Virus record (IMG/VR): IMGVR_UViG_3300030380_003953
Coordinates: 1-34,927 of that record
Direction: 5' to 3' (one strand)
DNA: 34,927 nucleotides
Source: a virus
Positions within the stretch are counted from its first letter, which is position 1. Every line of letters begins with the position of its first letter. The notes beneath the pieces are model-generated. The model did no database searches. It saw nothing but the letters and a program-made list of their open reading frames with translations, and had not been told where the DNA came from. Shown one piece after another: positions 4,827-34,127 of the stretch. Made by a program: the position numbers and the translations under genes.

Positions 4827-4847
4827 ACAAATTGGGAAGGAGAGATA

Positions 4848-5792: not shown

Positions 5793-5812
5793 ATATATCT
5801 AGGAGGATATAA

Positions 5813-7117
5813 ATGGCACAATCCGACACTAAAGTCGTGGGAGCAAAGAATTTAGGCTCCTCAGGTGTCCTCTATACCGATAGAAGAGATTTTTACATTC
5901 GTCCAAATATCGTTAAGGAACTTTGGACAGATGTGACTCCTTTTACTACTGTTGTTGCTAATCAAAGCACAATATCTGGTATGGCGGACCCTACTTTCAA
6001 AATGTTTGAACACAGAAACCCTTGGGTTAAACAAAAGTTTCAAATTGATACAGTAATTGCTAATGGTGCTATGCCAGCAGATAACATTGAATCTGGTAAT
6101 GTGACTATTTCAGGAGCAGAAGGTATTGAATTAGGAGACAACATTGTAGGACTAGAGCTTGAAGTTTTTTCAAGTACTGATGTTCCAAAATTCAAGTGTG
6201 TAGTTACTACTAGAAACAATGATGGAACAATTAAGTTTAAATTACTTGAAGATAAAGGTAGTCATGCACTTGCTAATTCTGACTATGCAATGGTAATTGG
6301 TAGTGCGTTTGGCGAGGGTACAAACTCCCCAACCGCATGGAGCAATGACCTATCTGTTGTCTACAATCAGTGTCAAATTTTTAAAACACCGATTGAAGTC
6401 ACTGGTACACTTCTTGAAGCTTCTTTACGTGGCGAATCAAAAGAATTGGCTCGTCTTCGTGATATGAAATCTCAAGAGCATAAAATCCAAAAAGAAAGAG
6501 CATTCTTATTTGGTTCTAACTTGGCTGGAATCAAAGCTAGTTTTTCTGACTTAGAAGCTCTAGGCGACGCTAGTGGAAATACTTTGCGTACAACAATGGG
6601 TATTATTCCTGCTCTTAACCAACATGGTAACACTACAGGGTATGAGCAAAACGTATTTGCTTCATCTGATGTAGATACCTATGCTGAATTTGTTGATGCA
6701 ATGGAAAAGATATTCCAGTATGTACCAACATCAGGAATGAAGCGTGCATTTGTTGGAGCTGGTGCTTTAGGATACTGGTCAAAAATGGGCGGAAACGCAG
6801 GTTCATTTGCTGGAGATTCTGGATGGACAGTCAATCTTGGCGATATGAAGCGTGATGCTCTTGGTTTTAACTACAGAGTCCTTGAGACACCTCATGGAAT
6901 GTTGCAGTTAATTCCAACTCCAGTTTTACGTGGACCTTACAACAAGCATATGCTTATTGTGTCTGATGAGAACCTATTCCATGCTCAGTATAGAAGACCT
7001 CAATTTCAAGCTTCAATACAAGCTAATGACTATGATGGTGTTAAAGACCAGTATATGTCAGATGAAGGTATTGGCATAAGCCTTATTGAGTCTCACGCTT
7101 TGATGGTAACACCATAG
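5813..7117 (+). CDS. Major capsid protein (HK97 fold, SU10-like)
   Basis: This 434-aa protein is the shell subunit. The N-terminal arm leads to a region rich in F/W (TPFTTVVANQSTISG, HRNPWVKQKFQIDT) as in the SU10-like capsid family (DUF5309-type). Residues about 95-165 look like the inserted beta-rich domain of that family, ending SDYAMVIGSAFGEGTNSP. Then comes the family-like stretch QIFKTPIEVTGTLLEA (about 187-202) and a long spine helix SKELARLRDMKSQEHKIQKERAFLFG. I recall this arrangement from the family and did not compare alignments. A perfect AGGAGG lies eight bases before the ATG, fitting a protein made in large amounts. It is followed by one small gene and then a strong terminator. 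Confidence 0.92.
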   Translation: MAQSDTKVVGAKNLGSSGVLYTDRRDFYIRPNIVKELWTDVTPFTTVVANQSTISGMADPTFKMFEHRNPWVKQKFQIDTVIANGAMPADNIESGNVTISGAEGIELGDNIVGLELEVFSSTDVPKFKCVVTTRNNDGTIKFKLLEDKGSHALANSDYAMVIGSAFGEGTNSPTAWSNDLSVVYNQCQIFKTPIEVTGTLLEASLRGESKELARLRDMKSQEHKIQKERAFLFGSNLAGIKASFSDLEALGDASGNTLRTTMGIIPALNQHGNTTGYEQNVFASSDVDTYAEFVDAMEKIFQYVPTSGMKRAFVGAGALGYWSKMGGNAGSFAGDSGWTVNLGDMKRDALGFNYRVLETPHGMLQLIPTPVLRGPYNKHMLIVSDENLFHAQYRRPQFQASIQANDYDGVKDQYMSDEGIGISLIESHALMVTP

Positions 7118-10712: not shown

Positions 10713-13700
10713 CTGGAAAAAGGTAGTATTAGCTACAGGTACATCCTCTCAATACATCAAAGGTGATGGTTCATTTGCTACCGACACAGACAGTTTACCT
10801 TTAACTGGTGGTCAAATTTCTGGCAATCTTGGTATAGGCGTATCGCCTTCAAGTGATTTACATATAGAAAGTGCAAGCAGTCCAACTATAAGACTTAAAG
10901 ACACTACAAACAATGTATTGCTTCTTACTTATGCACAAAACAGTGATGCTGTGATTGGTACTTACTCAAATCATCCAATGAAGTTTTATAGCAATAGCGG
11001 TTTAACATTAACACTAGGTACTGACCAATTATCTACTTTTAGTGGAAACATAAAAATTGACCAAGGTTCTGCATCATCTAATCCAAGATTAACATTTGCA
11101 CACGACAACATTGGAACTAACCATTACATTGAAATGGATAGAAGTTCAGATTATATGAAGGTTGTGGTTAATGGAGGAATTGCAACAATAATAGACTCGA
11201 ATCAGAGTTCTACCTTTTATGGTGCAATTAACTCATCTATGAGCAGTACATCTGTTCTTGGAAATTTAAGAAACACACACGCATCTGGTTATGGATTAAA
11301 AATACAAGCAACTGATGCAAACTCAGCAAGATATATAGCAACTTTTAATGATAAGGATGACAATGTAAAGGCACAGATAAAGGGTGATGGCTCTGCTACC
11401 TTTGGTGGTAATATAGTTGTTGGCGATATTACTTTATCTGGCTCAACTATATCTGATAACAGTGCATTAACTATAAGTAGTGGTGATGATATTACTATTG
11501 ATGCTACATCTGATATAAATCTTGATGCAGATGGTGGTGATATAAGATTTAAAGACAATGGTACTAACTTTGTTACATTTAGTTCTTCAACAGGCTCTAC
11601 TTTTGCTGGTTCTGTAGACAGTGGTTCTTGGTTAAAAATAAATGGAAATAATACTTTATGGTCAGCTACTAATACTGGCACATATATACAAGCACCTGCT
11701 ACTACCCAAACAATAAACTTTAGAAGCAATGGTCTTGCTATAGGTGCAGTATATGATGCGGTTAATAAAAAACTTGGTATTGGTGGAAGCCATACACCAA
11801 GTCATACTTTACATTTATCAGCTACTGAACCATATATAAAGCTTCAAGGAACTCATACTGATGGCTTGTACTTGATTGGTACTGGCGATGGCAATCTGTA
11901 TTTCACAGATGGGTCAACAGGTGTTCCAACAATGACTATGGACGATGCTTTCGTTGGTATAGGAACTGCTAGTCCTTTACATACTCTTCATGTAGAAAAA
12001 AGTGCTAGTAGTGATTGGATAGCAAAATTTAAAAATACAGGAACTACTAATGCTTATGGCGTTCAAATAGACACAACTGCTAATACAACTGTAGGTGAAT
12101 ATTCTCTTGGAGTTTATACAGGTGCAAATCTTGGATTTTTTGTAACTAGTGATAGTAAAGCTAGTATTGGTACAAATATTCCTACTCATAGATTAACTGT
12201 AGATACTGTTGGTTCTGGAACTGATATGTGCATTGGAACATATTCTGCTGGCAAAACTGCTGGTGTATTATATACAAGTGCAGATACAAATGGGTATTTT
12301 GCTATCCAATCTTATCTATCGCAAGGTAGTACATTCGGATGTATTAATTTAAATCCTTCAGGTGGTAATGTTTCTATTGGAACAGCGTATAGTGCACCTG
12401 ACCCATTATATATCACAGATGGTGCATCACCCCATGCTGGTCAATCCCATAGGATGATACAATTAAAACGAAATGCTTTAAATGATTCTAGTAATGCAGG
12501 TGCTGATACAAGTGCATTTTGTTCTATGTTATTTAGTAATAGGTCAAATGGTTTTACAATTGGATATGGCGGTACTTCAGACAGATTTAGATTTCTTGAT
12601 GGTGGCAATGTTGAAAGATTAACTATAAAAAATGGTGGGAATGTTGGTATTGGGACAACGAATCCTAGTGCTAAGATTCACATAGATGAAGTATCTAACG
12701 CATCTTATTATATGAAATTGGGTTCATCCCAAACAGAAGATGCTTTTTTTTGGTATAATGGCAGTTCTGGAGATAACGGATATTTTGGAGGAAAAGACCA
12801 ATCTAGTGGTAATGTTAATTTTCAAATTCATTCTGACGCATCTTTTAATACTTATTTTGCATCTCAAGGTGGGAAAGTTGGGATAGGAACTGCCAGTCCT
12901 CAAAAACAATTATCTGTTTATGCTGATGGCACTGCTCCAGAAATTTGTTGGGAAATTGCAGGAAATTCAGGTGCTAGAAATTGGGCATGGAGAGCAAGTG
13001 GTGCTAATTGGGGAGATTTTCAATTAAGACAAGGTTCTTCATTGGGTGGTGTTGTAGACACTCCTAGATTAACGATTCTTGATGGTGGGAATGTTGGTAT
13101 TGGAACTACTAACCCCACTGGATATAAACTGGTAGTACAGGGCACTTCAGAAGATTTATTAAAGCTTCATAACGCTACAGATGGGTTAGACTCTTTAATA
13201 TCATTTACAAATTCTGGTGGTACTTTAGCAAGAATACAAGGCATTGATAATGGTGGATTGGGATTTGATACAGGCAATAATGCAGGTGGCATAAATACTA
13301 ATGCAATGTTTATATCTAATGATGCAAAAGTGGGTATAGGTACATTAACTCCATCAAGCTATAATGCTTTAGCAAATAATTTAGTTGTGTATGAAAACAG
13401 TAATAGTGGTATTACTATAGCAAGTAGCACAAATGGAAATGGTTCATTGTTTTTTGCAGATGGTACTACTGGTGATGAAGCTTACAAAGGTTCTATAGAG
13501 TATGCTCATTCTACTAATAAACTAATGTTTAAAGCAAATTCAGTAACGCATATGGGTATAAACCCAAATGGTGATGTTGGAATAGGAACAATTGACCCAA
13601 TAAGTTTATTAAACCTATACGAATCAAATGCATCAGCAGTTTTAACTATACAAAGAAGAGAGGTTGATGGTGCTTTAACTACTGGTGATATTATTGGTCA

Positions 13701-17717: not shown

Positions 17718-18479
17718 ATGAAGATAAAAGAAAGAGTTGTTGTATTTCCAGATGTACATTACCCACATCAAGACGAAAAAGCATTTAGATGTGCATTAAA
17801 CGTAATAAAAGAAATCAAGCCCACAGCGTTTTTACTGTTAGGAGATTTCGTTGAAGGAGCTTCTGTCAGTCATTGGCAATGGCGTAAAAAGAAACGCCCA
17901 CCTCTTGAGTACCAACTTCCTTTTATTGAAAAAGAAATCAAAGATGGCAATATTGGTTTGGATAGAATTGATGAAGCATTGGATAAAGTTAAATGCAGGA
18001 AAAAGCAATACGCTCAAGGAAATCATGAGCTATGGTTCGACCACTTTGTCGAAGAAAACCCATACCTTGAAGATTATGCCTCAAGAAAAGCCTTCAAATT
18101 TGACGAAAGAGGATATGAATGGCATGACTATGGTGACATCTTTAAAGTGTTCGGAAGCAAGTTACACGCATATCACGGAGGACACTTTATGGGAGTTGCC
18201 CATGCAAGAACTCACGCCTTACAAATGGGATGCAACATCATCTATGGTCATACACACGACAGCCAAAAAGCAGTCATCACCCATATTAGTGGACCGCACA
18301 TGGCGTATTCAATGGGATGTTTAGCTGATATGAAGAAAGATTTCCTTAAAGGTAGACCAACAAATTGGACTCATAATGTAGGTCTAGTAGATATTTTTAC
18401 TAATGGAAACTTTAATCTTGTAGTTCTTGATATAAATAATGGCGTTACATCCTACGGAGGGAAAATAATAAGTGCCTAA
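17718..18479 (+). CDS. Calcineurin-like metallophosphoesterase
   Basis: A 253-aa predicted metal-dependent phosphoesterase. All signature blocks are present in order: D12-x-H14 in FPDVHYPHQD, GD43 in LLLGDFVEG, GNH103E in AQGNHELW, H153 in AYHGGHF, and GH178-x-H180 in YGHTHD. The substrate cannot be read from the motifs. The family includes nucleases, nucleotide phosphatases and protein phosphatases. GAGGA precedes the ATG. Its end overlaps the start of the large tail gene by eight bases. A late-gene position between lysis and tail genes is unusual for a phage enzyme of nucleotide metabolism, but such placement is seen in environmental phages. Confidence 0.88.
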   Translation: MKIKERVVVFPDVHYPHQDEKAFRCALNVIKEIKPTAFLLLGDFVEGASVSHWQWRKKKRPPLEYQLPFIEKEIKDGNIGLDRIDEALDKVKCRKKQYAQGNHELWFDHFVEENPYLEDYASRKAFKFDERGYEWHDYGDIFKVFGSKLHAYHGGHFMGVAHARTHALQMGCNIIYGHTHDSQKAVITHISGPHMAYSMGCLADMKKDFLKGRPTNWTHNVGLVDIFTNGNFNLVVLDINNGVTSYGGKIISA

Positions 18480-21400
18480 ACAGTCAAAATCAATAAGAGA
18501 TTTTAGCGGAGGAATTGCTAAAGGCGTAGATGCGTTATCGTTAAAAGATAATCAGCTATCGGAATGTGTTAATTTCATAGCAGATAACGTAGGTAAGCTT
18601 AAAATAATACCCGATGAAAATATTGCCTGTACTAATGAATTAAACACAGAATTACCTGATGGTTATTCAAAAAATATACACTCATGGTCTGCTGATTTTA
18701 ATTTGAGTAATTCAGCACAAAGTACAAATCTTGTTGCTCCTTCAGTTACGGAAGTAAAAGTTGCAAAAAGAGCGAATATGGAATTGTACTTTACTCCTTT
18801 TCAATCAAGTAATGATAATACAGATTATCAAGATAGAGCATTAATTATTAAAGACGCAGATAGAGATGAATATATAATTGAAACTATAGTTAAAAATCCT
18901 TTTGAATTTGGATTTCAAAGTAAAGTTCCTAAGAATTCTATACAAGGCTTAAGCTTAAATGAGTTGGAAATAATGACGCATAAACATTATTTACCATCAT
19001 CAAATGAAGGGTCTGATTATAAAGACCCTACTATCCCTTGGCATTTTAAAACATTAGCTGGTGGCGATACTCGTCCTAATGGCTCAAATACAGTTAAAGC
19101 TTCTTTTGGTCCAATAGATGCTGGTGGCAATCATGGATTTACAGCTAACAGTAGCGAAGCTACAGCAATGAATACATATAATAATCCTGCGTGGTTGGAT
19201 AGCACTAAAACCTTTGAAAGCAATACAACTGTATATACAGATACTACCTCAAATAATGCAATGGGAAGAAACTTTAGATACGAAGCTAGTAATGGCAATA
19301 TTGTGTTTCCAGGAGGTCAAAGAAACGGTGGTGCGTTTAAAATAGAATCTGTTCCAAATGGTGGCACTGCAACTAATACAACAAATCCAGTTGAATTTGG
19401 CAAAACTCCTTTTAATGCCTCTGCATCTCAAGATGATGCCTATGCATATCGCATGATAATAGAGTGGGACTATTGGGGAAAAATGAATATAAAATTCCCA
19501 AATGAGCATCCAGATGGGGCAATCAACTATGCTCGAGGGAAAGGATTTAGACCTATAGGAAATGATAATTTTCCTGCTCCAAGTAAAACTATTGATGGAG
19601 TAACATATAAATATAGAGAATTAGCTCCTTTTTTTCATGGGCACACTTTTGAAAACAAAGTAACAAATCATGTTGGCTCTAATCATATGTGTGTTGAAAG
19701 TGGTGCTTTCTATTATATGTTTAATAGAGCTCCTTCTTTTGGTCAATTTAGCGAATGGACATATAATTTAAGTAATGTAAAAAGATTTGAGACAGCTACC
19801 TATGGCGTGACTATTGCTTACTATACAAATGTAGAACAAACCAGTGAAGCTTCAATAACAAGAAGTTACGATTTGCAACTTGCTGAAAATGCAATGAGTG
19901 TTAAATCTGGATTATTTTATGAACCTGATAATATTTTATCAGATGTTCCTACTGACCACCAAATTAAATTTGAAATACTCGACGATAAAGTAAGAATATT
20001 TCAAGACGTAGATACATTAAAAGCTTATGGAATAAAAAACGTTTCTGTGACAAAAACCAACATCGTAGACCTTGGTGAAAAAATTACAGATGGTCAAAGA
20101 TATCAACATTTAGTTGCAATAACGAATGAAGATTCTATGGCAACAGTCTACTCCATGGAAAACGACACATGGTTAGACTGGCAGATGGATTTTAAATTTG
20201 AAGAAACAGAATATATAGGCACAGTTAATATAAATAACGGTTCTAATAGTGGAACTTATAACAGCTTTTCAACCTTAGCTCACCCTTCAATAGTTGGAAT
20301 GCAAGTAAGGGGAACAGGGATAAAACCTGGTACTACGGTGACTGCTCAAGATACAAGTGCTACGCCTCCTACAATACAGCTAAGTAAAAATACATCATCA
20401 GCGATTTCAAATGGGACGGTTTATTATTGGGATTCTTCAATGAATGTAGATGTTTCATATGTAGACGCAGAAGGGCATTTATTTGCAAGCGACATTACAT
20501 TTAAAAGCAATAACAGACCTCAGTGGTTTGGCTATTTGGATTTAAATAAAACTTATCTAAAAACTCAATTTGATAGTGTTTCAAATAATTTCAATAACAA
20601 TACTCCTCAGGTAGAAAAAGCAAAAGGATTTAGCACAGATGCATTATGTCCTCAACCATACCGAATTAAAATTACAAATAGTCCAGCTACGGCATTAAAA
20701 GGGCAAAATACGCATATTGCTACAAAAGTAAATGGCTTATTTAAATTTAAAGATTCATCTGGTACGGATTTATCTGATGATGAGACTTTAGTAAAAAGTG
20801 CTCCTAATTCAACAAGCACATGGGCAAGTCATCCTTTAGGAATCAAAATTCAATACGATTGGATAGATGGTCAAGAAAGTGAAGTTGGTACTTTGATGGA
20901 GGGTTCTTTTCTAAAAAAAGAATTAACAGAGTTTTATTTTAGTTACATTTATGAAGGTGGGTACGTAAGTCAACCTCAGCAGTTTTATGAACATACGTAT
21001 AATGCTGGTAATAGTGGAGCAGATTCAATAAATGTTCCATTTTCTACTGCACCTAAAGCAGATTCTTGTGCATTGGGATTGCATATTGGAATAGGACCTC
21101 AATTAATTAGCGGAAAAGGAAATAACGCTAACTGGTCAGGGTTGTCAGAAAAAGATGGTGTATTAAATGCTAGGCTAAAAGGCATTGAAATATATGGTCG
21201 CTTTACAAATACAGACCCTAATAACATATATCTTTTATGTGAAATAGATTTAAACAAAGGTTGGAAGTCATTTGCTACTGGAAAATGGAAAGACTTTACA
21301 ACGTTTGGTAACGTATCGCATTACGGAACTAGTTATACAAGTTCTACTGGAGGTCCAGTAACTGACCATATTATTTATAAGGCAGTACCTACGTTTCAGA

Positions 21401-22227
21401 GTTTCTTTAATAAATATCAACTAGCGTGGGATGAGCCTATTGGATTTGAAAGTGATGGTACTGGATGGAAGACAGCTTGCGTATTTAACAGAAGAGCTTA
21501 TTATGGCAATGTCAGAATTAAAGGCAAAGATGACCAAATAAAATATTATCCTGATGGTATTTTAAAATCTGCATTAGGTAATTATGCAACTGTTGGAGAG
21601 AGTAATTTAATTGAAGCTACTGTGAACGATGGGGATGATATTGTAGCTCTACGAGTTATTGGTAATAAACTATGTCAATTTAAGAAGTATTCCTTAACCA
21701 TAATGGGTGTTAAAACGCTAGAAAATGGCGAAAATCGTGAGGAAATTGAAGAAACCCTACATCATGTCGGCTTAGAGAGTGATAATCAAATTTGCGACAC
21801 TCCTTACGGGTTATTTTGGGTTAGTAGAAGTGGAATTTATTTGTATAATGGACAAAATATTCAAACACTTACATCCAACCCCCAAGGTAGTCTTATTGAC
21901 AAAACTCAATGGGAAAATTTTTATGGAAAAAGAACCCATGTAGGATATGATGCATACTGGAATCAGGCTCATATATGCAAAGACATAATGGCAAACTCTG
22001 AAGTATTAATCTATAGCTTTAATACGGGGGCTTTTACAGAGGGTTCAGATATGTATACGGGCTCAAAAAGAACTGGTTTTGTTACAGATAGAGATGGTCA
22101 CTTGTTGTGGGCTGAAAAAGTATCTGACGGAACTAGGGGCACTGCTGTAACTCCTAATAAAACAAATAAAGTAACGGAAAAAGCAAGTGATGTGCAAACT
22201 GCACCTCCACCACCTTCGGGGAACTAA
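18472..22227 (+). CDS. Large tail protein, putative podovirus tail nozzle
   Basis: A 1251-aa protein beginning with GTG at 18472, eleven bases after GGAGG. The N-terminus SIRDFSGGIAKGVDALSLKDNQLSEC then NFIADNVGKLKI is the (I)xDFxGGI...DNQxxECxNF motif of large podoviral tail proteins. Near the C-terminus, KLCQFKKYSLTIMGV, TPYGLFWVSRSGIYLYNG (about 1107-1124) and HVGYDAYWNQAHI are blades typical of the beta-propeller part of nozzle proteins (T7 gp12/P22 gp10 class). The long middle is beta-rich with several Asn/Ser-rich loops and a low-complexity Pro-rich end (TAPPPPSGN). It would form the tube or nozzle below the adaptor. This is inferred, because the insert sequences are not family-specific. 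Confidence 0.7.
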   Translation: MPKQSKSIRDFSGGIAKGVDALSLKDNQLSECVNFIADNVGKLKIIPDENIACTNELNTELPDGYSKNIHSWSADFNLSNSAQSTNLVAPSVTEVKVAKRANMELYFTPFQSSNDNTDYQDRALIIKDADRDEYIIETIVKNPFEFGFQSKVPKNSIQGLSLNELEIMTHKHYLPSSNEGSDYKDPTIPWHFKTLAGGDTRPNGSNTVKASFGPIDAGGNHGFTANSSEATAMNTYNNPAWLDSTKTFESNTTVYTDTTSNNAMGRNFRYEASNGNIVFPGGQRNGGAFKIESVPNGGTATNTTNPVEFGKTPFNASASQDDAYAYRMIIEWDYWGKMNIKFPNEHPDGAINYARGKGFRPIGNDNFPAPSKTIDGVTYKYRELAPFFHGHTFENKVTNHVGSNHMCVESGAFYYMFNRAPSFGQFSEWTYNLSNVKRFETATYGVTIAYYTNVEQTSEASITRSYDLQLAENAMSVKSGLFYEPDNILSDVPTDHQIKFEILDDKVRIFQDVDTLKAYGIKNVSVTKTNIVDLGEKITDGQRYQHLVAITNEDSMATVYSMENDTWLDWQMDFKFEETEYIGTVNINNGSNSGTYNSFSTLAHPSIVGMQVRGTGIKPGTTVTAQDTSATPPTIQLSKNTSSAISNGTVYYWDSSMNVDVSYVDAEGHLFASDITFKSNNRPQWFGYLDLNKTYLKTQFDSVSNNFNNNTPQVEKAKGFSTDALCPQPYRIKITNSPATALKGQNTHIATKVNGLFKFKDSSGTDLSDDETLVKSAPNSTSTWASHPLGIKIQYDWIDGQESEVGTLMEGSFLKKELTEFYFSYIYEGGYVSQPQQFYEHTYNAGNSGADSINVPFSTAPKADSCALGLHIGIGPQLISGKGNNANWSGLSEKDGVLNARLKGIEIYGRFTNTDPNNIYLLCEIDLNKGWKSFATGKWKDFTTFGNVSHYGTSYTSSTGGPVTDHIIYKAVPTFQSFFNKYQLAWDEPIGFESDGTGWKTACVFNRRAYYGNVRIKGKDDQIKYYPDGILKSALGNYATVGESNLIEATVNDGDDIVALRVIGNKLCQFKKYSLTIMGVKTLENGENREEIEETLHHVGLESDNQICDTPYGLFWVSRSGIYLYNGQNIQTLTSNPQGSLIDKTQWENFYGKRTHVGYDAYWNQAHICKDIMANSEVLIYSFNTGAFTEGSDMYTGSKRTGFVTDRDGHLLWAEKVSDGTRGTAVTPNKTNKVTEKASDVQTAPPPPSGN

Positions 22228-23685: not shown

Positions 23686-24657
23686 ATGGATGACATAACA
23701 AGACTATTAGGCTCAATTATAAGCGGTGGCTTGGATGGATATCAACAAAATCAAAGATTAGACAAAACAATTCAAGCACAAGAAGATATAGCCTTATTAA
23801 AAGACTCTTTAAGCGTAAAAAACACACAACAATTAAATGAGAATAATAGAGAAAATGCATTATTGTCAGATTCCTTAGGGGTTAAAAACGCAATGCTAGA
23901 AGATTCTTTAGATACCGAAAGAATGATGCGAGCAGATTCTTTAGCAAATGAAAGACATGAAGATACTCAAAGATTTCAAAAAGGAAATCAAGCATTAGGT
24001 CTTATGACTGCTTTGGGTCCAGCAATGACAGATACAAAAAACCAAGAGTTAAGCAATCAAATAGCTAAGGGTGATTTTCGATATGAAAATATTCGTACTA
24101 AAGTACGAGAATTAGAAGATGCAAAAAGAGATGCTAGACAATGGACTCCTGATTTAAACAATTTAAACAGACGAACATTGCAGTTTAGAACTGAAAAATC
24201 TTTTCCATTTAGTGAAACAGATATGCTAAATGATTATACAGAAGTAAGAGACGATTTAGAATTGACGGTTTTGGAAGCTTTGAAACTGCCACCCAATGAT
24301 ATGAAAAGAGCAGGAGTCTTAAAATTTCTTAATAAGATGGTAAAAAGAGCTGGGCATACAGATTTCTTAGACGGAGATTGGGGTATATTTGGAGGCGAGG
24401 ACCCAGATGGGGCACAAGCACAAGCAATTAAAGACGAATTAGAAACGTGGCAAACATTATTAAAGGATAAAAAAAGTAGCAATTCACTTTTAGACGATAT
24501 GTATAACATTTCTCCAGAAGATAGAAAGTTTTATCAAGAATGGAGAGGGCAAAGAGGTGCACTTTCTGGTAAAAAAATAGCAAACGTCGATGCTCAACAA
24601 GCTGAAATGATGAGTGTTTTAAAAACTTTAGTTGAACAATCTAATCCTAGTAAATGA
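23686..24657 (+). CDS. Putative internal virion protein with hendecad DSL repeats
   Basis: A 323-aa, mostly helical protein. After a short hydrophobic start (TRLLGSIISGGLDGY) the residues about 30-95 carry an 11-residue repeat centred on D-S-L: at 40-42, 62-64, 73-75 and 84-86 (spacings 22, 11 and 11). Such hendecads form long right-handed coiled coils. The rest is charged and helical (RTKVRELEDAKRDARQW, KRAGVLKFLNKMVKRAGH), with an acidic, Gly-rich linker DGDWGIFGGEDPDG. No enzyme motif is visible. Its stop overlaps the giant gene's start (ATGA), so it is translated with it, compatible with a partner of the giant virion protein. Confidence 0.55.
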   Translation: MDDITRLLGSIISGGLDGYQQNQRLDKTIQAQEDIALLKDSLSVKNTQQLNENNRENALLSDSLGVKNAMLEDSLDTERMMRADSLANERHEDTQRFQKGNQALGLMTALGPAMTDTKNQELSNQIAKGDFRYENIRTKVRELEDAKRDARQWTPDLNNLNRRTLQFRTEKSFPFSETDMLNDYTEVRDDLELTVLEALKLPPNDMKRAGVLKFLNKMVKRAGHTDFLDGDWGIFGGEDPDGAQAQAIKDELETWQTLLKDKKSSNSLLDDMYNISPEDRKFYQEWRGQRGALSGKKIANVDAQQAEMMSVLKTLVEQSNPSK

Positions 24658-27600
24658 ACCCATTTCAGACTAGGGAAAAACTAAAAAGATATCGCTTTAG
24701 ACCTGAAAACTTCACTCAAGAAGAAGCAAGGGAATTAGAGCGATTTTCAAAGCTATACGGCTTTGTTCAAGAAAACCAACCACTAGAAGAAACTTCAAGC
24801 AATAAACAAAGCAATATGCTTTCCCAGTTTAGTTCTGGGTTTACAGAGGGCTTACTTGGTCCTATTGCTATGGGTGGCTGGGCTGAAGACCCTCAAGATG
24901 AATTCCAATCTATCGCCCATAGTGCAGGGCATTTATTAGGGTTTGCATTGCCTCTGGCTGGTAGTCTTGTATCGTTTGGTGGAACTGGAATAGCAAGACT
25001 AGGGTTGATGGGTAGCGGTAGAATAGCAAAGGGTATTCAAGCTACAGGTAAAACAATAGGTGGCTTTGGTCAGGCTATGAAAAAAGGTAAGTCTGTACCT
25101 TTATTTGTAGGTGATAAAGCTGTAGATGCTACAAAAAAGATTTTAGCTAACGCTGGGTTTGAAGCTGGCAAGTACCTTGAGGCTGGTGCCAAGATTGGGT
25201 TTAAAGCAAAAATGACTGATGTTGCATTTCAAGCACAGCATTTATCTGTAGCAAGTGCTGTAAGTGGAATGTGGAATGGCGAAGACGATGAAGTAGATAA
25301 TTTAATATTTGGTGCTGTAGCTGGAGGGTTTTTTGGAGGCTTAGGAAACTTTGTGCGTGTTGGTAACATGATACAACACCCTAATAAGGTAGTACGAGAA
25401 GCTGGGAAACGTAATCTTTGGGAATCGTCAAAACAATTATCAGATACTTTATATAATTATAGAGGTCAAATTCTTAGAGGTGCATTAGGTGCTGGTTTTC
25501 AAGGTGGAATGGCTACTATGCAAGGTGCACCAACTGCTACGCAACTATATGAATATGCATTAGGGGCATTTTTTGGTGCTGGTGCTCATGGAATTAGGGA
25601 AAAGAAAGCATCTGAGTTTTTTAACAGTTATGAAAAAAGAAATGAAGAAGGTGCTTTACAGAAAGATTTTGCTGAGCGAAGGAATATGCTTGAGTCAGAC
25701 GAGTTTAAAGCACTCCCTTTAGACTCTCAGCAATTAGTAAGAGAAAAATACACAAATTATATTGGAGATTTTTGGGATAGGTTCAAAGGAGAAGCCCTTC
25801 AAACAGATGATTCCTTACCTAGTGTTAAACTAGCAAGGGAAATACTAAAGCCCTACAACGAAGCATTAGAAAGAAAAGCACAAGAAGTCAGTAAGAAGAC
25901 CGAAGACTTAGAGCCGTTTGAGATTGCCCAAGTTCAAGCTGAACTAATGGAGGTAGTACCTCAGCAATACGCAAGAGATTTAAACCTAAGAGTAATATCT
26001 GAAGGGTTATTAAAAAAGATACGCAACCCTAAGGAAAAATTAGAAGATACACAGCAAGAAATAGTAGATAAACTTACTCCTGAAGAACTTTCTCAAGTCA
26101 AAGAAGGCTATATAGAGCCATTAGAGAAAAAGATTGTTGAGTATTTTGAAAATATACCTCAAGAAAAAATAGAAACAACTGCTCAGGACATACTGCGAGC
26201 AGAAGAGAATTTAATATCAGACCAACCTGAACTTGTAGTTGAGCCAGTTATTAGGCGGTTTCTTAATCAACTACAAAAAGAAACAGACATCTACGAACCT
26301 AACGATGTATTAGAACACGCAGTAAAGACTTATAATGAATTACTGCCAAAGTCAGAAAGTGGTAAACGAGACACAAGATTTATCCCCGTAAAGGGAATGG
26401 TAAAAGAATACATAATGCTTCTTCAGGATAAGTTTCCTGGCATCAGAGTCACACCAGAAATGAAAAACAGCCTTACTCAAATGTACACTAGACTATCGCA
26501 AGGCGTTATAAGACCAGTTATTAGTTACGACAAAACTACTCAGAAAAGAAAAACAATATGGGGATTTAATGTATTAAAGAGAAAAGTATCAGGTAGCGAG
26601 CCACGTTCAGCAGATGAAAAAATGTATGAAAATTTATGGGGAGATAAAGTTACAGTACGAGAATTCTCTGAATTAGTAGACAAAAAAGGCAATACCTACA
26701 TAACATTAAAGCCTTACGACAAGGTGTGGAATGACAACTTAAAAGAATGGGTCCCTGCAATGCGTAGCAATGACTGGTTAAACATAACTAAGGGACTAGA
26801 TAAAAAAGACCAGTATTTAAAAATACCTAAAAAAGATGGCGGTACTGAGCGTATATACAAGTATCACCCAAAAACAAATAGCACAGAATTAAACACTATT
26901 GTAAAAGAAGTAGTAACGAAGTCAAAAAGTAAAGCAATAACAGAAGATTTACTTAAAAAATACATTGAAAAAGACTATAAAGTTTGGCTTGAAACAATGG
27001 GGTTTGATTTAAAGCTGGAAAAAGACCTCATTGAAAATCAAGGGTTACGCAATTTATATAATAAAGCTTTTAAGTCTAATTACTTATACGAAAAAAACTG
27101 GAATTTTAAAAACGCAATTGCAAGAGTAAAACGTGAGGCACTACTTGCATCTAAGTCATTTTACGAGCAAGACAGAAAGTTTTTTAAAGACCTTACTAAC
27201 GATACTGGCAAAATAAACATTATAGCTATAGAAGCTGAAGCCAATCTACTGGGAAAGCTTAGCAGTACTGGAAAAAGAATAGGGCAATGGCTAAATGTAG
27301 AAGGTAAAAAGCCTGAAACATTCTGGACTGTAGATAAGAATGGAAAACTAATGGAACAAGCATGGGAAAGTAAGATTGATGGTTGGTTAGTAATGCATTC
27401 TGATTTATATAAAAGATTTATGGAAGCTAACGGATTTGATGGCGTTCAAATGTCTCATATGAAGCCTGCAGTAGCTGTTACAATGCCTGATGGAAGTCTG
27501 TTTTTAATAAAAGGTGGAGTACATCCAGGAAACAAGGCTTATAACGATGCAATGCCTAGTCCTAACTCTATGATAGTCGTGACTTCTGCTATCAAATCTA

Positions 27601-30600
27601 TGCCAGAAGGTGCAAAGGTATATAAAGGACAAGCTAAAAAGAATGGTAAATACGAAATAAAAGACTACGACAAACCTTCCTTAGAAATGAATGTTGAAGA
27701 CTTTAGAATAAGTTTTGGCGTATATGGAGACAAGCACTCAGCAGAACCCACTACAATTAAAAAACAAATGCATTCATTTTTTGATAGCCTAACTATGAGT
27801 AGAGATGGTTATAGAGAATTTATGGACGCAATTCATTTTGATGTAATTAATGGCTCAAAGCAAGCCAATGAGTATATGCAAACCTTAAAAGAAAACCCTG
27901 ATGCATTGCCACCAAAGGGGTTCAAGGTTACAGAATTAAGTGATAAAGATTTTATTACAGTTATAAACAACCCTAGTCACAAGCTCCACAAAGAATTAAA
28001 CCTAGAAATCTTTAAGAAAATCAAAAGGATGGAAAAGGCAGAAGAATTTGAAGGTGCTGTGTATGAAGAACTAAAAGAGTATGCTAATAATTTTGAACGA
28101 TGGTACCGAGCTACTGGTTATAATCCTGTATCTGCAATAATAAACAATAGTTTATATGAAAAGTCTGTGCATATATATCGTATGAATAAATTTACTAATC
28201 CAGAATGGAAAAACTCTGGAAGCGGATGGGTAGCTGGGGTAGACCCAGTAATGGAGGCAGTAACTGGAGGTATTAAAAAGAATGCAACCTATGAGTTTTT
28301 TGAAGATGGAAAGTTAAAGAAAAGAAAAGTGGGGCATTTTAAAGTAGGTATAAGCCATAAAGACATGAAGGTTAAATGGCTTGGTGAAGGTGAACAGATA
28401 AAACTAATCGAAGCTTGGGAGCAGTTTAAAAAAGAAAAGAATCCACACGTCAAAGCAAGAATGAGAAACAAACTCATGTTTGCTGTAATGAGGGTCCCAG
28501 CTAATGCAATATCAGGGACTAGGGCATTAATATTTGATGGATTTGTAAAAAATGACGTTGATTTATCTGATTGGGGCGTTTATATGAGAGGCAGAGACCA
28601 CTTTTACATAGATGGAGCTGACGTTGATGGCGATAAAGTGTTCTTTTATCAAGGATTACCTCAGAAATACCTTAATGATTTAGTCAAAAACGATAGTTTT
28701 TTGGAAAGGGCAAAGCAAGGTAAGAGTGTTTTCTTTGAAAATAAAGCTGAAAAAATGGATAAGTTGTTTAAAAGCGAAGTTTCTAAAGCAGATTTAGACT
28801 ACGTTAACAACAACCCATTGGCTCAATGGTCTCCTGGTGCATTACGTAAAACAGGTATAAGTGCATACACAGGAAAAAAAGGATTGGGATTAGTAGTAAA
28901 TGCTAAATCGTTTTTAAATAATGTGTTAGCTGATGTGATAACCAATAAGGGTGGTAAAATAAGATTAGGGGTTTACACAACAAGTAAAGAAACTGGTAAA
29001 AAAATACTTATAGGTGACTTAATTGGTCAAACTGACATGGCACAATTAAAATCTGAAAACGGTTATTACGTAGTAGGTACAGAGGCACATAGCAGAACAG
29101 CAGACAGTGCAAATTATTACAATATGGCAACTCCGCAAGAGATGGTAGACATTGTTACTCAAAGTGCTTTTAGGAGTTTAAAGTTTCACCCGATTGAAGA
29201 AGGAAAAATTAGAGATGGAAGACTTAGTGATTTAAAAAACACATTAGAATATGCTCATTTAAGTGAATTGAATAACAAGTTGTATGGGTATGATTTTTCA
29301 AACGATAGGGCATTTACTATAAGTGAAATACAAAATGCTGTAAAGCCATTTAAAGGCGAAGTAAAAACTATGAGTTCTATCGTTGATATTGCCCACAAAG
29401 TGGCACAAAACGAATTGAACATTGACCCACTCAGGCATTTTAACTACCAAGCATTTAGAGAAGCTATAAGAACTTTAAGCAATGAATTATTGCGAGACAA
29501 AGACGTACTAAAATACATTACTAGAAAGAACCTGAGGGTAATGCCATTGTACTACCACATAGATTATCAGGCAGTGTATAAAGCGATGTTAAAACACCCA
29601 GAGTTCACTACGAAAAATGGACTAACCTTACGAGAAGTTCCAGAAAAAGGTGCTACTAAAAAAGATAAAGAACCATATAGGGAGCTACTATGGGAAGCGT
29701 TAGAACCGCCAAATAAAGAAGGGATTTCTCCATTAGAAGAAAGACTAGGAGATATCGGTAAAGGCGTACAAAAAACATTTAATAATTTATTTTCTAACCA
29801 AAGAATGGAGATAGGTAAAGCTATATCCAGATATGATGCTAAAGTTGAAAAAGAATATAAGATAAATGACTCCTACGATATATGGAGTGCCTTACAACTC
29901 AACATAAAAGGTAAGGCATTAGATGATGCATTAAAAAACGCTGGTCACATTTCAGAGAAAGGTCAAATACCTTATGAGCGTATTAATGAAATTGCTAACA
30001 GAATAGTAAATGGTGAGCAAATAACTGGCAATAATATCGAAATGTTGGAAACTCAAAAATGGTCAAAACAGATACAAAAAGCAGTAGACGACATACAAGC
30101 TGGCAAGCAACCAAAGACCGCTTCTGAGAGCAAATTTTTAATATTAAGAGACATTATAGCAAGACAAGCTGAAGCTGTAAAGCTCAAATTTAATCATGCG
30201 TTTAAAAATGAAAATCAAAGAGTATTCGAGAACGAGCAAGAAGCCAATAAATTTATTAGAGAAAACGTAGTTGAGATAAGCAACATAGCAAAAGAATTAA
30301 AGATTAAACCTGAAGTAGCAGTTGATTATTATTACAATTACCTACTAAGCAGTTTACGTCCACAGCCAGTTCGATTAGAGGGAATTATTAGAAACCTTAA
30401 TGGTAGAATAGCAACTGCGGAAAAGAAAGGTCAAGCAGATAAAGTAGAAATACTAAAAAGGGAAAAAGAACGGGCAAGAGCTCAATACGAAAATACCAGC
30501 ACACCTCAATTTATATGGTCAGTGGATGCGATACCTGACCGAGTAAAATCACAATTTATGAAAGGGTATGCTGATACTTTCGATTTACTCAATACTGTTA

Positions 30601-33600
30601 CTACTGATAAAATATCAGGAGAACTTACAGGATATTTAGCAAAATCCAAAAAAGACACTAAGCTTGGAGAGATTGAAAGCAGTATAGATGCTGAGGTAAT
30701 TGCTGAGGTAGAAATTGATAGATTATTTAAACCAGATAAGCTAGGTGGTGTAGAAATTGCAAAAGATGCAAAAGGAAAAGCTGATGACGTGCCTAGTGAT
30801 ATACCACAAGTATTACGAGGTATTACCCAGAGTTTAAAAACATTACCCGATGGAGCTATTTTAAGATTTGAAGACCTATATACTTATATGAAATCAGTAC
30901 AAGGCGATGGTCCAACAAGTATTAAGATGGCAACTTGGGAAGACATAAGGTCATTTAATCGATTTTTAAAGGACATAGTTAACTCTACGAATCCAACTGG
31001 TAAAGTAAAAAAGATATATGACTTCCTTTTTCCAGATACAGTAGGTAAAAAACAAGCTGGGCATGACCTTGATTTGTTATTTAAAATGAAAACACCTATA
31101 CGTAATGCCAAAGATATGGGATTGGCTACTATAAAAGTGCCATTATCCTCTATGTCATTTATACAAAAAGTTGGTGGACAAATGAGAGAACTTGAAGATT
31201 CTATTAAAAACAGTATGGTAGAATCCTTATTTAATGGCATTACTGTGAAATCTGAATTGGAAGCAATACCAAATGGTATTCAAACGTTTACTGATTTATT
31301 TATGTTTGCTCAAAAGAAAATGAACTATGAACGTGCTGTAAAGCCTCAAGATGTTGAGTTTTATGGAAACGAATGGGCATCATCCTTAAAACTATGGGAC
31401 AGTAAATACAAAGGTAAAAAATTCAAGTTTACTAGAGCTGGTAAAGTAGTTGAAAAAACCTCTGAAGAAATAATTAGAGACATTCAAGAACAACAAGGAA
31501 AGTTTTTACAAGGATTTTATGAAAGCTATTTAGGAGCTGGTGTTATAGATAGGTCTGGTGAATGGAAGCGTATTGACTGGAAGCGAGTTGATGAAAATGC
31601 AGAATGGGCTAAAAACGGATTGGTAATACATGACTTTATACGTTACGATAAAAATGGACGATTTGATTTAGAAAACTTTCAGAAAAAAGTAATGGACCAC
31701 GTAGAAACATTTGGCGTTAATGCATTACATAAGATGTTAGGGAATCGAAATAATCCTTTAGGTACTGAGCTATTAAACAGGGTACAGCACGAAATAGGCT
31801 TAGAAGAGCATATACTAAGTAAGAAAATAAAGCCTAATTCAGAAGAGTCTAGAAATGTCAGACTAGAATGGAGGAAAGCTAACGAATTTTTTGGAATTGG
31901 AAGAATAGGTACGGAAGGAACAGAGGGATTTTCTACAGAATACTTCCCTCAAATGAAACATGATACAAAAAAATTAAAACCTTGGGTTCAAGAACAGCAG
32001 TTAAAGCTTAAAGAAAAATTAGAAAACTACGTTAATGACTTAACTCATGCTGGTAAAACAGTAATGGAAGACTCTTCTTATAAAATACCTAGACGATATA
32101 GGTTTAAGGAAATTGAATTAGAAGCTTTAAAAGGCAAAATGTCTGATAAGCAACTAATAGACATATGGGGCGTATCTAATGTTACTATTAAACCACATTT
32201 GATAAGCCTCAAGCTTGCAAGCCAAAATGCTGATTATCAATTGTACTTAGGGCAAAGAGTAGAAAGTGCAATGGGTCAATCAGACTATCTAGTAAACTTT
32301 TTAAACGCTGAATTCCGTAAAGGAAAAGAGCAATGGCAAGATATTAACGCTGAGTTTAGACCAGGAACTGGTAGACAAAGAGGCGATACTCATGTACCGT
32401 ATTTTAGTTACGGCTTTGAAGTTTTAGAAGCATACACTAATCAATGGGTAAGCTCCTTATTTAAAAACTTAAACGCATTAACTTTTCGTAAAGTCATAAA
32501 TAATTACGAGCAAAACAATGTCTTTGCTAAAGAAAACCCTGAAATGGGAGAAATGTGGTCTAAGGAAATGAGAAGATATGCTAGTAGCTTAATGGGGAAA
32601 CCAAATGCATTACCAACAAAGTATACTGGGTTAAGTATTGTAGAAAAAGCAAAGCTTAAGCAGAGAATAAAACAAGCACCTGATGGTCCTCAAAAAGAAT
32701 TGGACAAACGAAAATTAGAACGTGATAATAAACTTAAAAAACTATATGGAACTAAAGTAACCACATGGAATCCATTACAAAATATTGAATACAGAATGTC
32801 TGACCAAAATCTGGTTGAATACCTTGATGCCAAATCACAGCAATTAAACAAATGGGCGATTCCTGGCATTAGTAAAAAATTTCACGGTACACCAGAAGCA
32901 CCTAAGCTATTTGGAATGGATTTGCCTACTTCCGAAAAAGCAAGACACCAAGTTTTATATCAAATCCTTAATAATATAGGTGCTTACGAATCAAAACTTT
33001 CATTGATATCACTACTAGCTCATCCAAAAACATATTTAGGTAACGTAGTAGGTGGTAGCTCTAATACCATAACCAATATGGGTTTCAGGCAATTTAAAAG
33101 GGCGAGAGATGTAAAGTGGCTAGTAACTAACGTGTTTGCAGGTGCCAAGCTAAAAGACGGTACTCCAATTACCGATAGGAATACCATACATAGATGGGTA
33201 GCAGAAATTGGTGCGTTAGAATCGTTTTATATCAATGAAGCTATGATGGATAAGCGATTAGACGCTAAAAAATTGAAACCATTTTTTAAAGAAGTGTTTT
33301 CTAAAAGAGATGTTACAGATGCTACAGTAATGGACTTAGCTAAAAAATACCAAGTAACAGATTCTATATTATCTGCTGGTGGCTGGTTTATGAGAGCCTC
33401 AGAAAGAACACTTCGTACCGATGCGTTTATAGCACATTATCTAAATGCAAGAGAAGCTTTGGGACAAATAATACCTAATATGCCCTTTGACCATCCCTAC
33501 CTTACAGGAATGGCATTAAAAGGCGTTGAAGCTACGCAGTTTTTATACCATAACGTTAATAGACCAGCAGTTTCTCGCTCTACAATGGGAAAAGTGTTTA

Positions 33601-34127
33601 CAAGATTCCAACCTTTTATGTGGAATTCAATACGTTTTAGAAGAGATATTTATAAACAAGCTAAGATGTATGGGTTTAATGATAAAAAATCAATGGATAG
33701 GCTAAAAAGATTGACCATTATGGACTTATCAACCTTTGCATTAGCGAATGTATTTGTAGGTTCTCTTTTTGACAGCATACTACCACCTCCTTTATCTTAC
33801 GTACAAGATACTGCCGATTGGTTATTCGGAGATAAAGTTGAAAGGGAGAGAGCGTTTTTCAGTGCCTATCCACATCCTATATTAGCACCATTGCAGGTAG
33901 CCACAGCTCCAATACATAGATATTGGATGCCACTAATGACTGCCCTAATTAATGGAGAATGGGAACGATGGGCAAATTACTATACGTGGTCAATGATGCC
34001 ATTTGGAAGACTGGCAAGAAGTACTATTATGACATTAGAAAGACCAGAAATGACTGCTGAATTCATGTTTGGAATACCAGTACATAAATTAGGAAATATG
34101 ATAAGGAAAGATAACGATGGGTCCTAA
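24654..34127 (+). CDS. Giant virion protein with a predicted crAss-type RNA polymerase core
   Basis: A 3157-aa protein. Residues about 55-330 are Gly/Ala-rich with possible membrane segments (GHLLGFALPLAGSLVSFGG near 92-110, IFGAVAGGFFGGLGNFV near 218-234, YALGAFFGAGAHG) around SGFTEGLLGPIAMGGWAEDP, a start I associate with large ejected phage proteins. Residues about 905-985 and 1280-1490 contain motifs of two double-psi beta-barrels: D909-G910, K937-P938, K953, K981 and then R1280-x-P...SG, GF, and D1323-V-D1325-G-D1327-K-V. TGKKGLGLVVNAK (1406-1418) and SRTADSAN (1480-1487) follow. The remainder is charged and helical, with VEATQFLYHN near 2955 and a hydrophobic part near 3020-3050. It starts in an ATGA overlap and probably needs coupled translation. 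Membrane delivery and virion location are inferred. The polymerase reading is from motifs, not from an alignment. Confidence 0.8.
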   Translation: MNPFQTREKLKRYRFRPENFTQEEARELERFSKLYGFVQENQPLEETSSNKQSNMLSQFSSGFTEGLLGPIAMGGWAEDPQDEFQSIAHSAGHLLGFALPLAGSLVSFGGTGIARLGLMGSGRIAKGIQATGKTIGGFGQAMKKGKSVPLFVGDKAVDATKKILANAGFEAGKYLEAGAKIGFKAKMTDVAFQAQHLSVASAVSGMWNGEDDEVDNLIFGAVAGGFFGGLGNFVRVGNMIQHPNKVVREAGKRNLWESSKQLSDTLYNYRGQILRGALGAGFQGGMATMQGAPTATQLYEYALGAFFGAGAHGIREKKASEFFNSYEKRNEEGALQKDFAERRNMLESDEFKALPLDSQQLVREKYTNYIGDFWDRFKGEALQTDDSLPSVKLAREILKPYNEALERKAQEVSKKTEDLEPFEIAQVQAELMEVVPQQYARDLNLRVISEGLLKKIRNPKEKLEDTQQEIVDKLTPEELSQVKEGYIEPLEKKIVEYFENIPQEKIETTAQDILRAEENLISDQPELVVEPVIRRFLNQLQKETDIYEPNDVLEHAVKTYNELLPKSESGKRDTRFIPVKGMVKEYIMLLQDKFPGIRVTPEMKNSLTQMYTRLSQGVIRPVISYDKTTQKRKTIWGFNVLKRKVSGSEPRSADEKMYENLWGDKVTVREFSELVDKKGNTYITLKPYDKVWNDNLKEWVPAMRSNDWLNITKGLDKKDQYLKIPKKDGGTERIYKYHPKTNSTELNTIVKEVVTKSKSKAITEDLLKKYIEKDYKVWLETMGFDLKLEKDLIENQGLRNLYNKAFKSNYLYEKNWNFKNAIARVKREALLASKSFYEQDRKFFKDLTNDTGKINIIAIEAEANLLGKLSSTGKRIGQWLNVEGKKPETFWTVDKNGKLMEQAWESKIDGWLVMHSDLYKRFMEANGFDGVQMSHMKPAVAVTMPDGSLFLIKGGVHPGNKAYNDAMPSPNSMIVVTSAIKSMPEGAKVYKGQAKKNGKYEIKDYDKPSLEMNVEDFRISFGVYGDKHSAEPTTIKKQMHSFFDSLTMSRDGYREFMDAIHFDVINGSKQANEYMQTLKENPDALPPKGFKVTELSDKDFITVINNPSHKLHKELNLEIFKKIKRMEKAEEFEGAVYEELKEYANNFERWYRATGYNPVSAIINNSLYEKSVHIYRMNKFTNPEWKNSGSGWVAGVDPVMEAVTGGIKKNATYEFFEDGKLKKRKVGHFKVGISHKDMKVKWLGEGEQIKLIEAWEQFKKEKNPHVKARMRNKLMFAVMRVPANAISGTRALIFDGFVKNDVDLSDWGVYMRGRDHFYIDGADVDGDKVFFYQGLPQKYLNDLVKNDSFLERAKQGKSVFFENKAEKMDKLFKSEVSKADLDYVNNNPLAQWSPGALRKTGISAYTGKKGLGLVVNAKSFLNNVLADVITNKGGKIRLGVYTTSKETGKKILIGDLIGQTDMAQLKSENGYYVVGTEAHSRTADSANYYNMATPQEMVDIVTQSAFRSLKFHPIEEGKIRDGRLSDLKNTLEYAHLSELNNKLYGYDFSNDRAFTISEIQNAVKPFKGEVKTMSSIVDIAHKVAQNELNIDPLRHFNYQAFREAIRTLSNELLRDKDVLKYITRKNLRVMPLYYHIDYQAVYKAMLKHPEFTTKNGLTLREVPEKGATKKDKEPYRELLWEALEPPNKEGISPLEERLGDIGKGVQKTFNNLFSNQRMEIGKAISRYDAKVEKEYKINDSYDIWSALQLNIKGKALDDALKNAGHISEKGQIPYERINEIANRIVNGEQITGNNIEMLETQKWSKQIQKAVDDIQAGKQPKTASESKFLILRDIIARQAEAVKLKFNHAFKNENQRVFENEQEANKFIRENVVEISNIAKELKIKPEVAVDYYYNYLLSSLRPQPVRLEGIIRNLNGRIATAEKKGQADKVEILKREKERARAQYENTSTPQFIWSVDAIPDRVKSQFMKGYADTFDLLNTVTTDKISGELTGYLAKSKKDTKLGEIESSIDAEVIAEVEIDRLFKPDKLGGVEIAKDAKGKADDVPSDIPQVLRGITQSLKTLPDGAILRFEDLYTYMKSVQGDGPTSIKMATWEDIRSFNRFLKDIVNSTNPTGKVKKIYDFLFPDTVGKKQAGHDLDLLFKMKTPIRNAKDMGLATIKVPLSSMSFIQKVGGQMRELEDSIKNSMVESLFNGITVKSELEAIPNGIQTFTDLFMFAQKKMNYERAVKPQDVEFYGNEWASSLKLWDSKYKGKKFKFTRAGKVVEKTSEEIIRDIQEQQGKFLQGFYESYLGAGVIDRSGEWKRIDWKRVDENAEWAKNGLVIHDFIRYDKNGRFDLENFQKKVMDHVETFGVNALHKMLGNRNNPLGTELLNRVQHEIGLEEHILSKKIKPNSEESRNVRLEWRKANEFFGIGRIGTEGTEGFSTEYFPQMKHDTKKLKPWVQEQQLKLKEKLENYVNDLTHAGKTVMEDSSYKIPRRYRFKEIELEALKGKMSDKQLIDIWGVSNVTIKPHLISLKLASQNADYQLYLGQRVESAMGQSDYLVNFLNAEFRKGKEQWQDINAEFRPGTGRQRGDTHVPYFSYGFEVLEAYTNQWVSSLFKNLNALTFRKVINNYEQNNVFAKENPEMGEMWSKEMRRYASSLMGKPNALPTKYTGLSIVEKAKLKQRIKQAPDGPQKELDKRKLERDNKLKKLYGTKVTTWNPLQNIEYRMSDQNLVEYLDAKSQQLNKWAIPGISKKFHGTPEAPKLFGMDLPTSEKARHQVLYQILNNIGAYESKLSLISLLAHPKTYLGNVVGGSSNTITNMGFRQFKRARDVKWLVTNVFAGAKLKDGTPITDRNTIHRWVAEIGALESFYINEAMMDKRLDAKKLKPFFKEVFSKRDVTDATVMDLAKKYQVTDSILSAGGWFMRASERTLRTDAFIAHYLNAREALGQIIPNMPFDHPYLTGMALKGVEATQFLYHNVNRPAVSRSTMGKVFTRFQPFMWNSIRFRRDIYKQAKMYGFNDKKSMDRLKRLTIMDLSTFALANVFVGSLFDSILPPPLSYVQDTADWLFGDKVERERAFFSAYPHPILAPLQVATAPIHRYWMPLMTALINGEWERWANYYTWSMMPFGRLARSTIMTLERPEMTAEFMFGIPVHKLGNMIRKDNDGS
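27366..29116 (+). other. Predicted RNA polymerase catalytic region inside the giant protein
   Basis: This sub-region covers residues 905-1487. In order: KIDGWLVMHSDLY (DG at 909-910), HMKPAVAV (K937), LFLIKGGVHPG (K953) and VTSAIKSMP (K981), which resembles the beta-type barrel with its nucleotide-contacting lysines. About 300-370 residues later come RVPANAISGTRALIFDGF (R1280) and YIDGADVDGDKVFFYQG (D1323, D1325, D1327), which match the D-x-D-G-D magnesium triad of the beta'-type barrel. Downstream TGKKGLGLVVNAK and RTADSAN recall the segments following the triad in single-chain crAss-like polymerases. From memory, those have the same order. The glycine in D-G-D and the surrounding K-V-F/Y are compatible with both crAss-type and bacterial enzymes. 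Confidence 0.65.

Follow-up and report, generated by a model that had tools for sequence, protein, structure and literature searches.

The subject of this analysis is a giant protein encoded near the end of a 34,927-bp stretch of viral DNA, hereafter the window (positions 1-34,927 of the IMG/VR virus record IMGVR_UViG_3300030380_003953), where an intact open reading frame (ORF) at 24654-34127 on the plus strand, which is also the strand of the parts of this ORF and of the terminase, portal and capsid genes located below, encodes 3,157 residues. We consider it quite probable that this giant is ejected from the virion and that its middle part (residues ~615 to 1590) holds a complete single-chain DNA-dependent RNA polymerase (RNAP) core that transcribes the early genes. 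That it carries an RNAP of the two-barrel (double-psi) superfamily is well supported by its predicted structure, in which the two-barrel fold is accompanied by a DxDxD aspartate triad, basic residues in the beta barrel and a helix that qualifies as a bridge helix by position and length. Two-barrel virion RNAPs are known from crAss-like phages and from a Thermus phage, and a multisubunit version occurs in jumbo phages.

An original prediction, made from the letters alone, placed an RNAP at 27366-29116 (residues 905-1488), and translation of the intact ORF recovers every motif that it listed, in the order claimed and at the positions claimed: DG (909-910), KP (937-938), K953 before GG-x-H957, SAIK (978-981), RVP (1280-1282), SG (1287-1288), GF (1296-1297), GADVDGDKV (1321-1329), GKKGLG (1407-1412) and TADSAN (1482-1487). 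The first group falls in a putative beta-like double-psi barrel (residues 936-1013; 27459-27692), delimited by the strand pattern of the model and containing K937, K953, H957 and K981. A putative beta'-like double-psi barrel (residues ~1188-1360; 28215-28733) holds SGSGWVAG, RVP, GF and the catalytic loop, and is recognised by these invariants and by a strand-helix-loop-strand-helix arrangement around the predicted catalytic triad D1323-V-D1325-G-D1327 (28620-28634). After the catalytic barrel the model has a single 38-residue helix (residues 1394-1431; 28833-28946) that includes GKKGLG and is the putative bridge helix, an element expected at this place, and further on RTADS (residues 1481-1485; 29094-29108) is possibly a trigger-loop-like element.

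A D-x-DGD string is not decisive on its own, since 3.5% of shuffled proteins of the same length (3157 aa) and composition contain one; what decides is conservation. Nineteen homologous giants, which share about 31-85% identity with the window protein, were aligned, and no stretch anywhere in the protein stays invariant for longer than IDGADVDGD; RTADS comes second, followed by MRVP, WVAG and RAFF. When two remote giants are added (21 in total) the top three invariant runs are DGAD, DGD and RVP. The aspartate triad is invariant in both sets; conservation of its motif in close homologues is what the original prediction required. The three lysines K937 (27462-27464), K953 (27510-27512) and K981 (27594-27596) are near-invariant in the 19 giants, and K953 is also kept in the two remote giants, G014 and G015. 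In the RNAP core of two relatives, the non-synonymous rate (dN 0.14-0.18) lies far below the synonymous one (dS 1.3-1.7), indicating purifying selection, which likewise acts on the whole giant frame. Taken as sequence, an intact active site is well supported; that the core is catalytically active and copies a DNA template is what we infer.

Residues 600-1700 were modelled with AlphaFold2 from an alignment of 19 sequences (window number = model number + 599), and the model is confident, with a mean predicted local distance difference test (pLDDT) of 82.2 and a predicted template modelling score of 0.78. Foldseek against the PDB returned six matches with E below 0.001, all to QDE-1, then RDR2 and the large subunits of cellular RNAPs (E 2.7e-6 for the best-scoring QDE-1/RDR2 fold matches); against BFVD it returned ten viral proteins without names, with E down to 2.7e-30, then crAss-like phage proteins, the matches including the phi14:2 structural protein S0A2C3. 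VIA-align 2 ranked QDE-1 (Z 15.3), maize RDR2 (15.1) and Arabidopsis RDR2 (12.8) above the P23-45-type gp64 (12.0), phi14:2 gp66 (11.2) and P23-45 gp96 (9.6), while cellular large subunits, with 160-320 residues aligned, had Z of about 9.5-10; the longest alignment, 765 residues at 4.7 A, was that with gp66, though at a lower Z than QDE-1 and RDR2. Around the triad the model places a strand (709-712, model numbering), a helix (714-721), the triad loop, a strand (729-734) and a helix (738-746), which is the secondary structure that the cellular beta' barrel shows around its aspartate triad. The best matches of a confident model are therefore two-barrel polymerases, and the claim of a multisubunit-type enzyme holds at the level of fold and of deep motif conservation. 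The extent first proposed for the RNAP was too small: the motifs do lie in it, but fold matches (ranges within model residues 1-994) reach model residue ~990 and place the predicted core at about residues 615-1590 (26496-29423).

Close relatives are encoded at eight IMG/VR loci, a set that alignment-guided scans enlarged to about two dozen contigs, and a scan of IMG/VR DNA for the patterns DGAD-x-DGD and GAD-x-DGDK added one giant of 3113 aa (profile E 6.5e-15), one of 3290 aa (2.9e-14) and a further, remote clade. A motif-based scan seeded from that clade identified relatives on 217 IMG/VR contigs, from which 80 loci were kept for the counts given here; all were found through [GD]GAD[LV]DGD, so that GAD[LV]DGD is present in all 80 by selection. 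A feature that was not selected for is R[VIL]P followed by SG or a similar pair, which 74 of the 80 have at a distance of exactly 37 residues ahead of GAD. Where the ORF is closed (62 loci), the protein has 2471-3587 residues, and the nearest upstream ORFs, up to three, are all co-directional in 60 of these 62.

Profile-profile comparison joins the clade of the window protein to the remote one with probability 100 and E 1.5e-42 over 650 columns at 17% identity. The aspartate triad, RVP and GF all recur in the remote clade, as do the three lysines proposed for the beta barrel. In the alignment SHMKP stands opposite NKSF (K937 with the conserved lysine of NKSFIVSP), LIKGGVH opposite LLGKYMxH and SAIK opposite SAAK, whose lysine does not vary among 22 remote-clade sequences; three lysines and a histidine are therefore kept across the family. 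Deep conservation extends to the very motifs that the original prediction named, the lysines K937, K953 and K981 among them.

The giant is likely a virion RNAP, and its packaging, ejection and use on early genes are suggested by its place in the late module, its fusion into a protein of this size, the conservation of its flanks and analogy with known systems. Within the window it is the final large gene in the late structural module, closing a co-directional run of structural genes, and homologous giants of similar length occur in IMG/VR; by position and size it is encoded, like known virion RNAPs, together with virion-structural genes. The protein is conserved end to end among relatives. Its N-terminal ~614 residues (24654-26495), with glycine-rich hydrophobic stretches at residues 95-113 and 216-234 (hydropathy peaks 1.43 and 1.36), may be a membrane or ejection part, and the helical C-terminal 1567 residues (29424-34124) may serve packaging or ejection, the last ~400 residues being among the best conserved parts in the conservation profile. 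The giant would be made late alongside the structural proteins, packed in the virion head and ejected with or ahead of the DNA, the flanking regions serving packaging and passage through the envelope. Once in the cell, its polymerase would start on the first genes of the phage with no need to wait for the host enzyme, the beta-like barrel supplying the basic residues K937, K953 and K981, and the beta'-like barrel, with the bridge helix after it, supplying the metal-binding aspartates D1323, D1325 and D1327.

Comparison with characterised enzymes clarifies what is shared and what is not. The gp66 protein of phi14:2 is a virion component that is translocated into the host with the DNA and transcribes the early genes of this crAss-like phage (PMC7886860), and structural work on crAss-like phages has led to the proposal that cargo is stored and is ejected, partly unfolded, through the tail (PMC10172136). 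Like the window giant, gp66 is a single-chain two-barrel RNAP of a tailed phage and a very large protein encoded in the structural region, and both have the aspartate loop, which reads GSDFDIDK in gp66 and GADVDGDK in the window giant. However, gp66 is a 2180-aa protein that has two more large structural proteins as neighbours, whereas the window core lies mid-chain in 3157 aa; sequence similarity is not detectable; and the terminase, portal and capsid families differ. The designation "crAss type" in the original prediction is therefore apt as a functional likeness, but membership of the gp66 family is not supported by sequence, and QDE-1 and RDR2 rank first by Z. In P23-45, gp96 (PDB 8h2n) is a virion RNAP fused to a giant tail (tape measure) protein (PMC10770324); it resembles the window giant in joining a two-barrel RNAP to a giant virion protein, but P23-45 is a long-tailed Thermus phage, and its gp96 RNAP forms the N-terminal part of the tape measure protein and has no clamp, whereas here the core lies mid-protein in a podovirus-like phage. 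The non-virion gp64-type RNAP (8f72, 8f5m) belongs to the same two-barrel class. QDE-1 and RDR2, although the best-scoring fold matches, are eukaryotic enzymes of RNA silencing with ~10% identity over the aligned part.

N4 gp50, a very large, ejected RNAP that transcribes early genes, resembles the window giant in proposed strategy but not in fold, its catalytic domain being T7-type and unrelated; neither the window giant nor its pieces matched a T7-type RNAP in Pfam or PHROGs, and a search for PF00940 in 13 relatives found nothing, but its control was without a match anywhere too. The giant further recalls the phage polyvalent proteins (PMC5512222), which are likewise giant, multidomain and probably injected; the text of that article does not mention double-psi or YonO, and its mentions of RNA polymerase concern the host enzyme or stand in references. 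Extra domains following the catalytic loop, in the manner of polyvalent proteins, occur in remote relatives: one giant (L122) has a ~97-residue insert with 42% identity to a section of a 6.4-kaa protein from the crAss-like phage cr272_1, and in another (L143:6663-8912) residues 674-729 of the piece are a fused DprA-like domain (phrog_768, E 1.2e-15). An insert at residues ~1715-1880 of the G014 giant (L117) has 36-49% identity to short stretches that occur in many phages, those of Pseudomonas among them.

Several results weigh against the proposal of an ejected early-gene RNAP. The giant, its pieces and four alignments gave no polymerase or other meaningful match in Pfam, PHROGs or PDB sequences, and the profile was not significant against the single gp66 or gp96 sequences; no cultured relative of the RNAP core was found in the cultured-phage collection; an 11-mer search in the intergenic DNA of six contigs brought out no recurrent promoter-like motif; and the AlphaFold2 model of residues 2400-3157 (pLDDT 54.6) is too poor to speak for a packaging role. 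The profile match to gp66 or to any polymerase that the original prediction anticipated was thus not obtained from Pfam, PHROGs, PDB sequences or the single gp66 sequence, for which hhalign probability was below 1% and blastp was not significant; a weak hhalign alignment to gp66 residues 1246-1306 was judged spurious. Profiles of both clades likewise found no polymerase among PDB sequences, leaving no link to known polymerases beyond the level of fold. With the RNAP cores of six members as queries, tblastn against cultured phages gave no match or matched accessory inserts only, and GTDB genomes, scanned twice, yielded no relative, an absence that these scans, relying on short patterns, do not prove.

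Among other explanations, the strongest is that the two-barrel RNAP is unpackaged, made during infection and used on middle or late genes in the manner of YonO of SPbeta, a single-chain two-barrel RNAP that transcribes the late genes of that temperate phage (PMC5467207). By its published description YonO also shares the essential aspartate triad, and integrases in two relatives of the window phage fit a temperate life; yet YonO is free-standing and ~100 kDa, whereas the window core is fused into a ~3000-aa protein, conserved end to end at the end of a structural module, which resembles the known virion RNAPs, and we regard this explanation as unlikely. Rather less probable is a two-barrel polymerase that copies a different template or makes a different product, such as an RNA-dependent RNAP or a primase acting in phage DNA entry: the highest VIA-align Z values do belong to RNA-interference polymerases, but the phage enzymes of the same fold, gp66, gp64 and gp96, transcribe phage genes from DNA, and two fuller relatives have DnaB/primase proteins of their own. 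It is very improbable that the RNAP domain is degenerate and has been retained to serve the virion structurally, a notion that its embedding in a structural-module giant might suggest, given that triad, RVP, GF and three lysines are retained between families at 17% profile identity. That an unrelated virion protein resembles a polymerase in a few short motifs by chance, as the frequency of D-x-DGD in shuffled sequences might allow, is refuted by the fold, with two-barrel polymerases as the best matches of a confident model, and by the invariance of the motifs.

The genomic setting of the giant is that of a podovirus-like phage which, on its genes, is not a member of Crassvirales; the term podovirus-like reflects gene order and the absence of a recognised long-tail module and is known here from genes alone. 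Nearly all long ORFs of the window lie on a single strand, and besides the giant they include the terminase large subunit (TerL; 1075-2559; phrog_38, E 2.4e-84), the portal protein (2613-4826; phrog_156, E 2.6e-61), the major capsid protein (5813-7117; phrog_1328, E 5.7e-12, with tblastn matches to annotated capsid proteins) and a tail fibre. The corresponding families of phi14:2 are PHROGs 6681, 6547 and 11589, in line with the earlier statement that the window shows no crAss-like hallmark genes. Only a metallophosphoesterase (17718-18479; phrog_221) is common to the two phages in the PHROG comparison; in phi14:2 this family is encoded within the structural region. For TerL, portal and capsid the nearest cultured relatives are weak matches to diverse phages, and the giants of cultured phages with window-like capsids (CRP-810, Mel-JY34, Desulfofustis phage) are not homologous to the window giant. 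A 1251-aa protein upstream of the giant (18472-22227) had no meaningful family or cultured-phage match.

Two fuller relatives encode DnaB/primase, Sak- or Erf-like annealing proteins and an integrase, and one of them also ParB. The integrase genes follow shortly after the giant gene (12230-13126 in G001; 45653-46588 in G007), and at least some members are therefore probably temperate. In G007, primase and helicase parts at opposite contig ends suggest a circularly permuted, nearly complete genome of ~50 kb.

Other candidate polymerases were also observed. A 903-aa protein (IMGVR_UViG_3300031867_000365, ORF 3939-6647; G016, L119) has R-x-P and DGADFDGD, matches PHROGs 25339 and 8308 of unknown function and is a candidate free-standing two-barrel RNAP outside the giant family, and contigs of 218 kb and 155 kb (L131, L133) carry a 1747-aa ORF with LQGADFDGDKIHLIF, another candidate RNAP.

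Altogether, this is a new RNAP family within a known kind, named by none of the profile libraries used, found in a different phage lineage and related to proteins on 217 contigs. On balance, we favour the view that it represents an unrecognised, widespread family in which ejected giants of ~3,000 residues are cell-type two-barrel RNAPs of a large group of uncultured, podovirus-like and partly temperate phages, so that phages unrelated to the crAss-like ones would start infection with an enzyme of their own. The family provides a conserved, predicted single-chain catalytic core of ~980 residues for expression, and brings phage members into a fold group in which the RNA-interference polymerases otherwise score best. 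Because relatives are encoded on more than 200 further contigs of uncultured viruses, it may be common for a virus to deliver a transcription enzyme of its own into the cell together with its DNA. The family also suggests that a large group of environmental phages, temperate ones among them, might do without the host RNA polymerase for their first genes.

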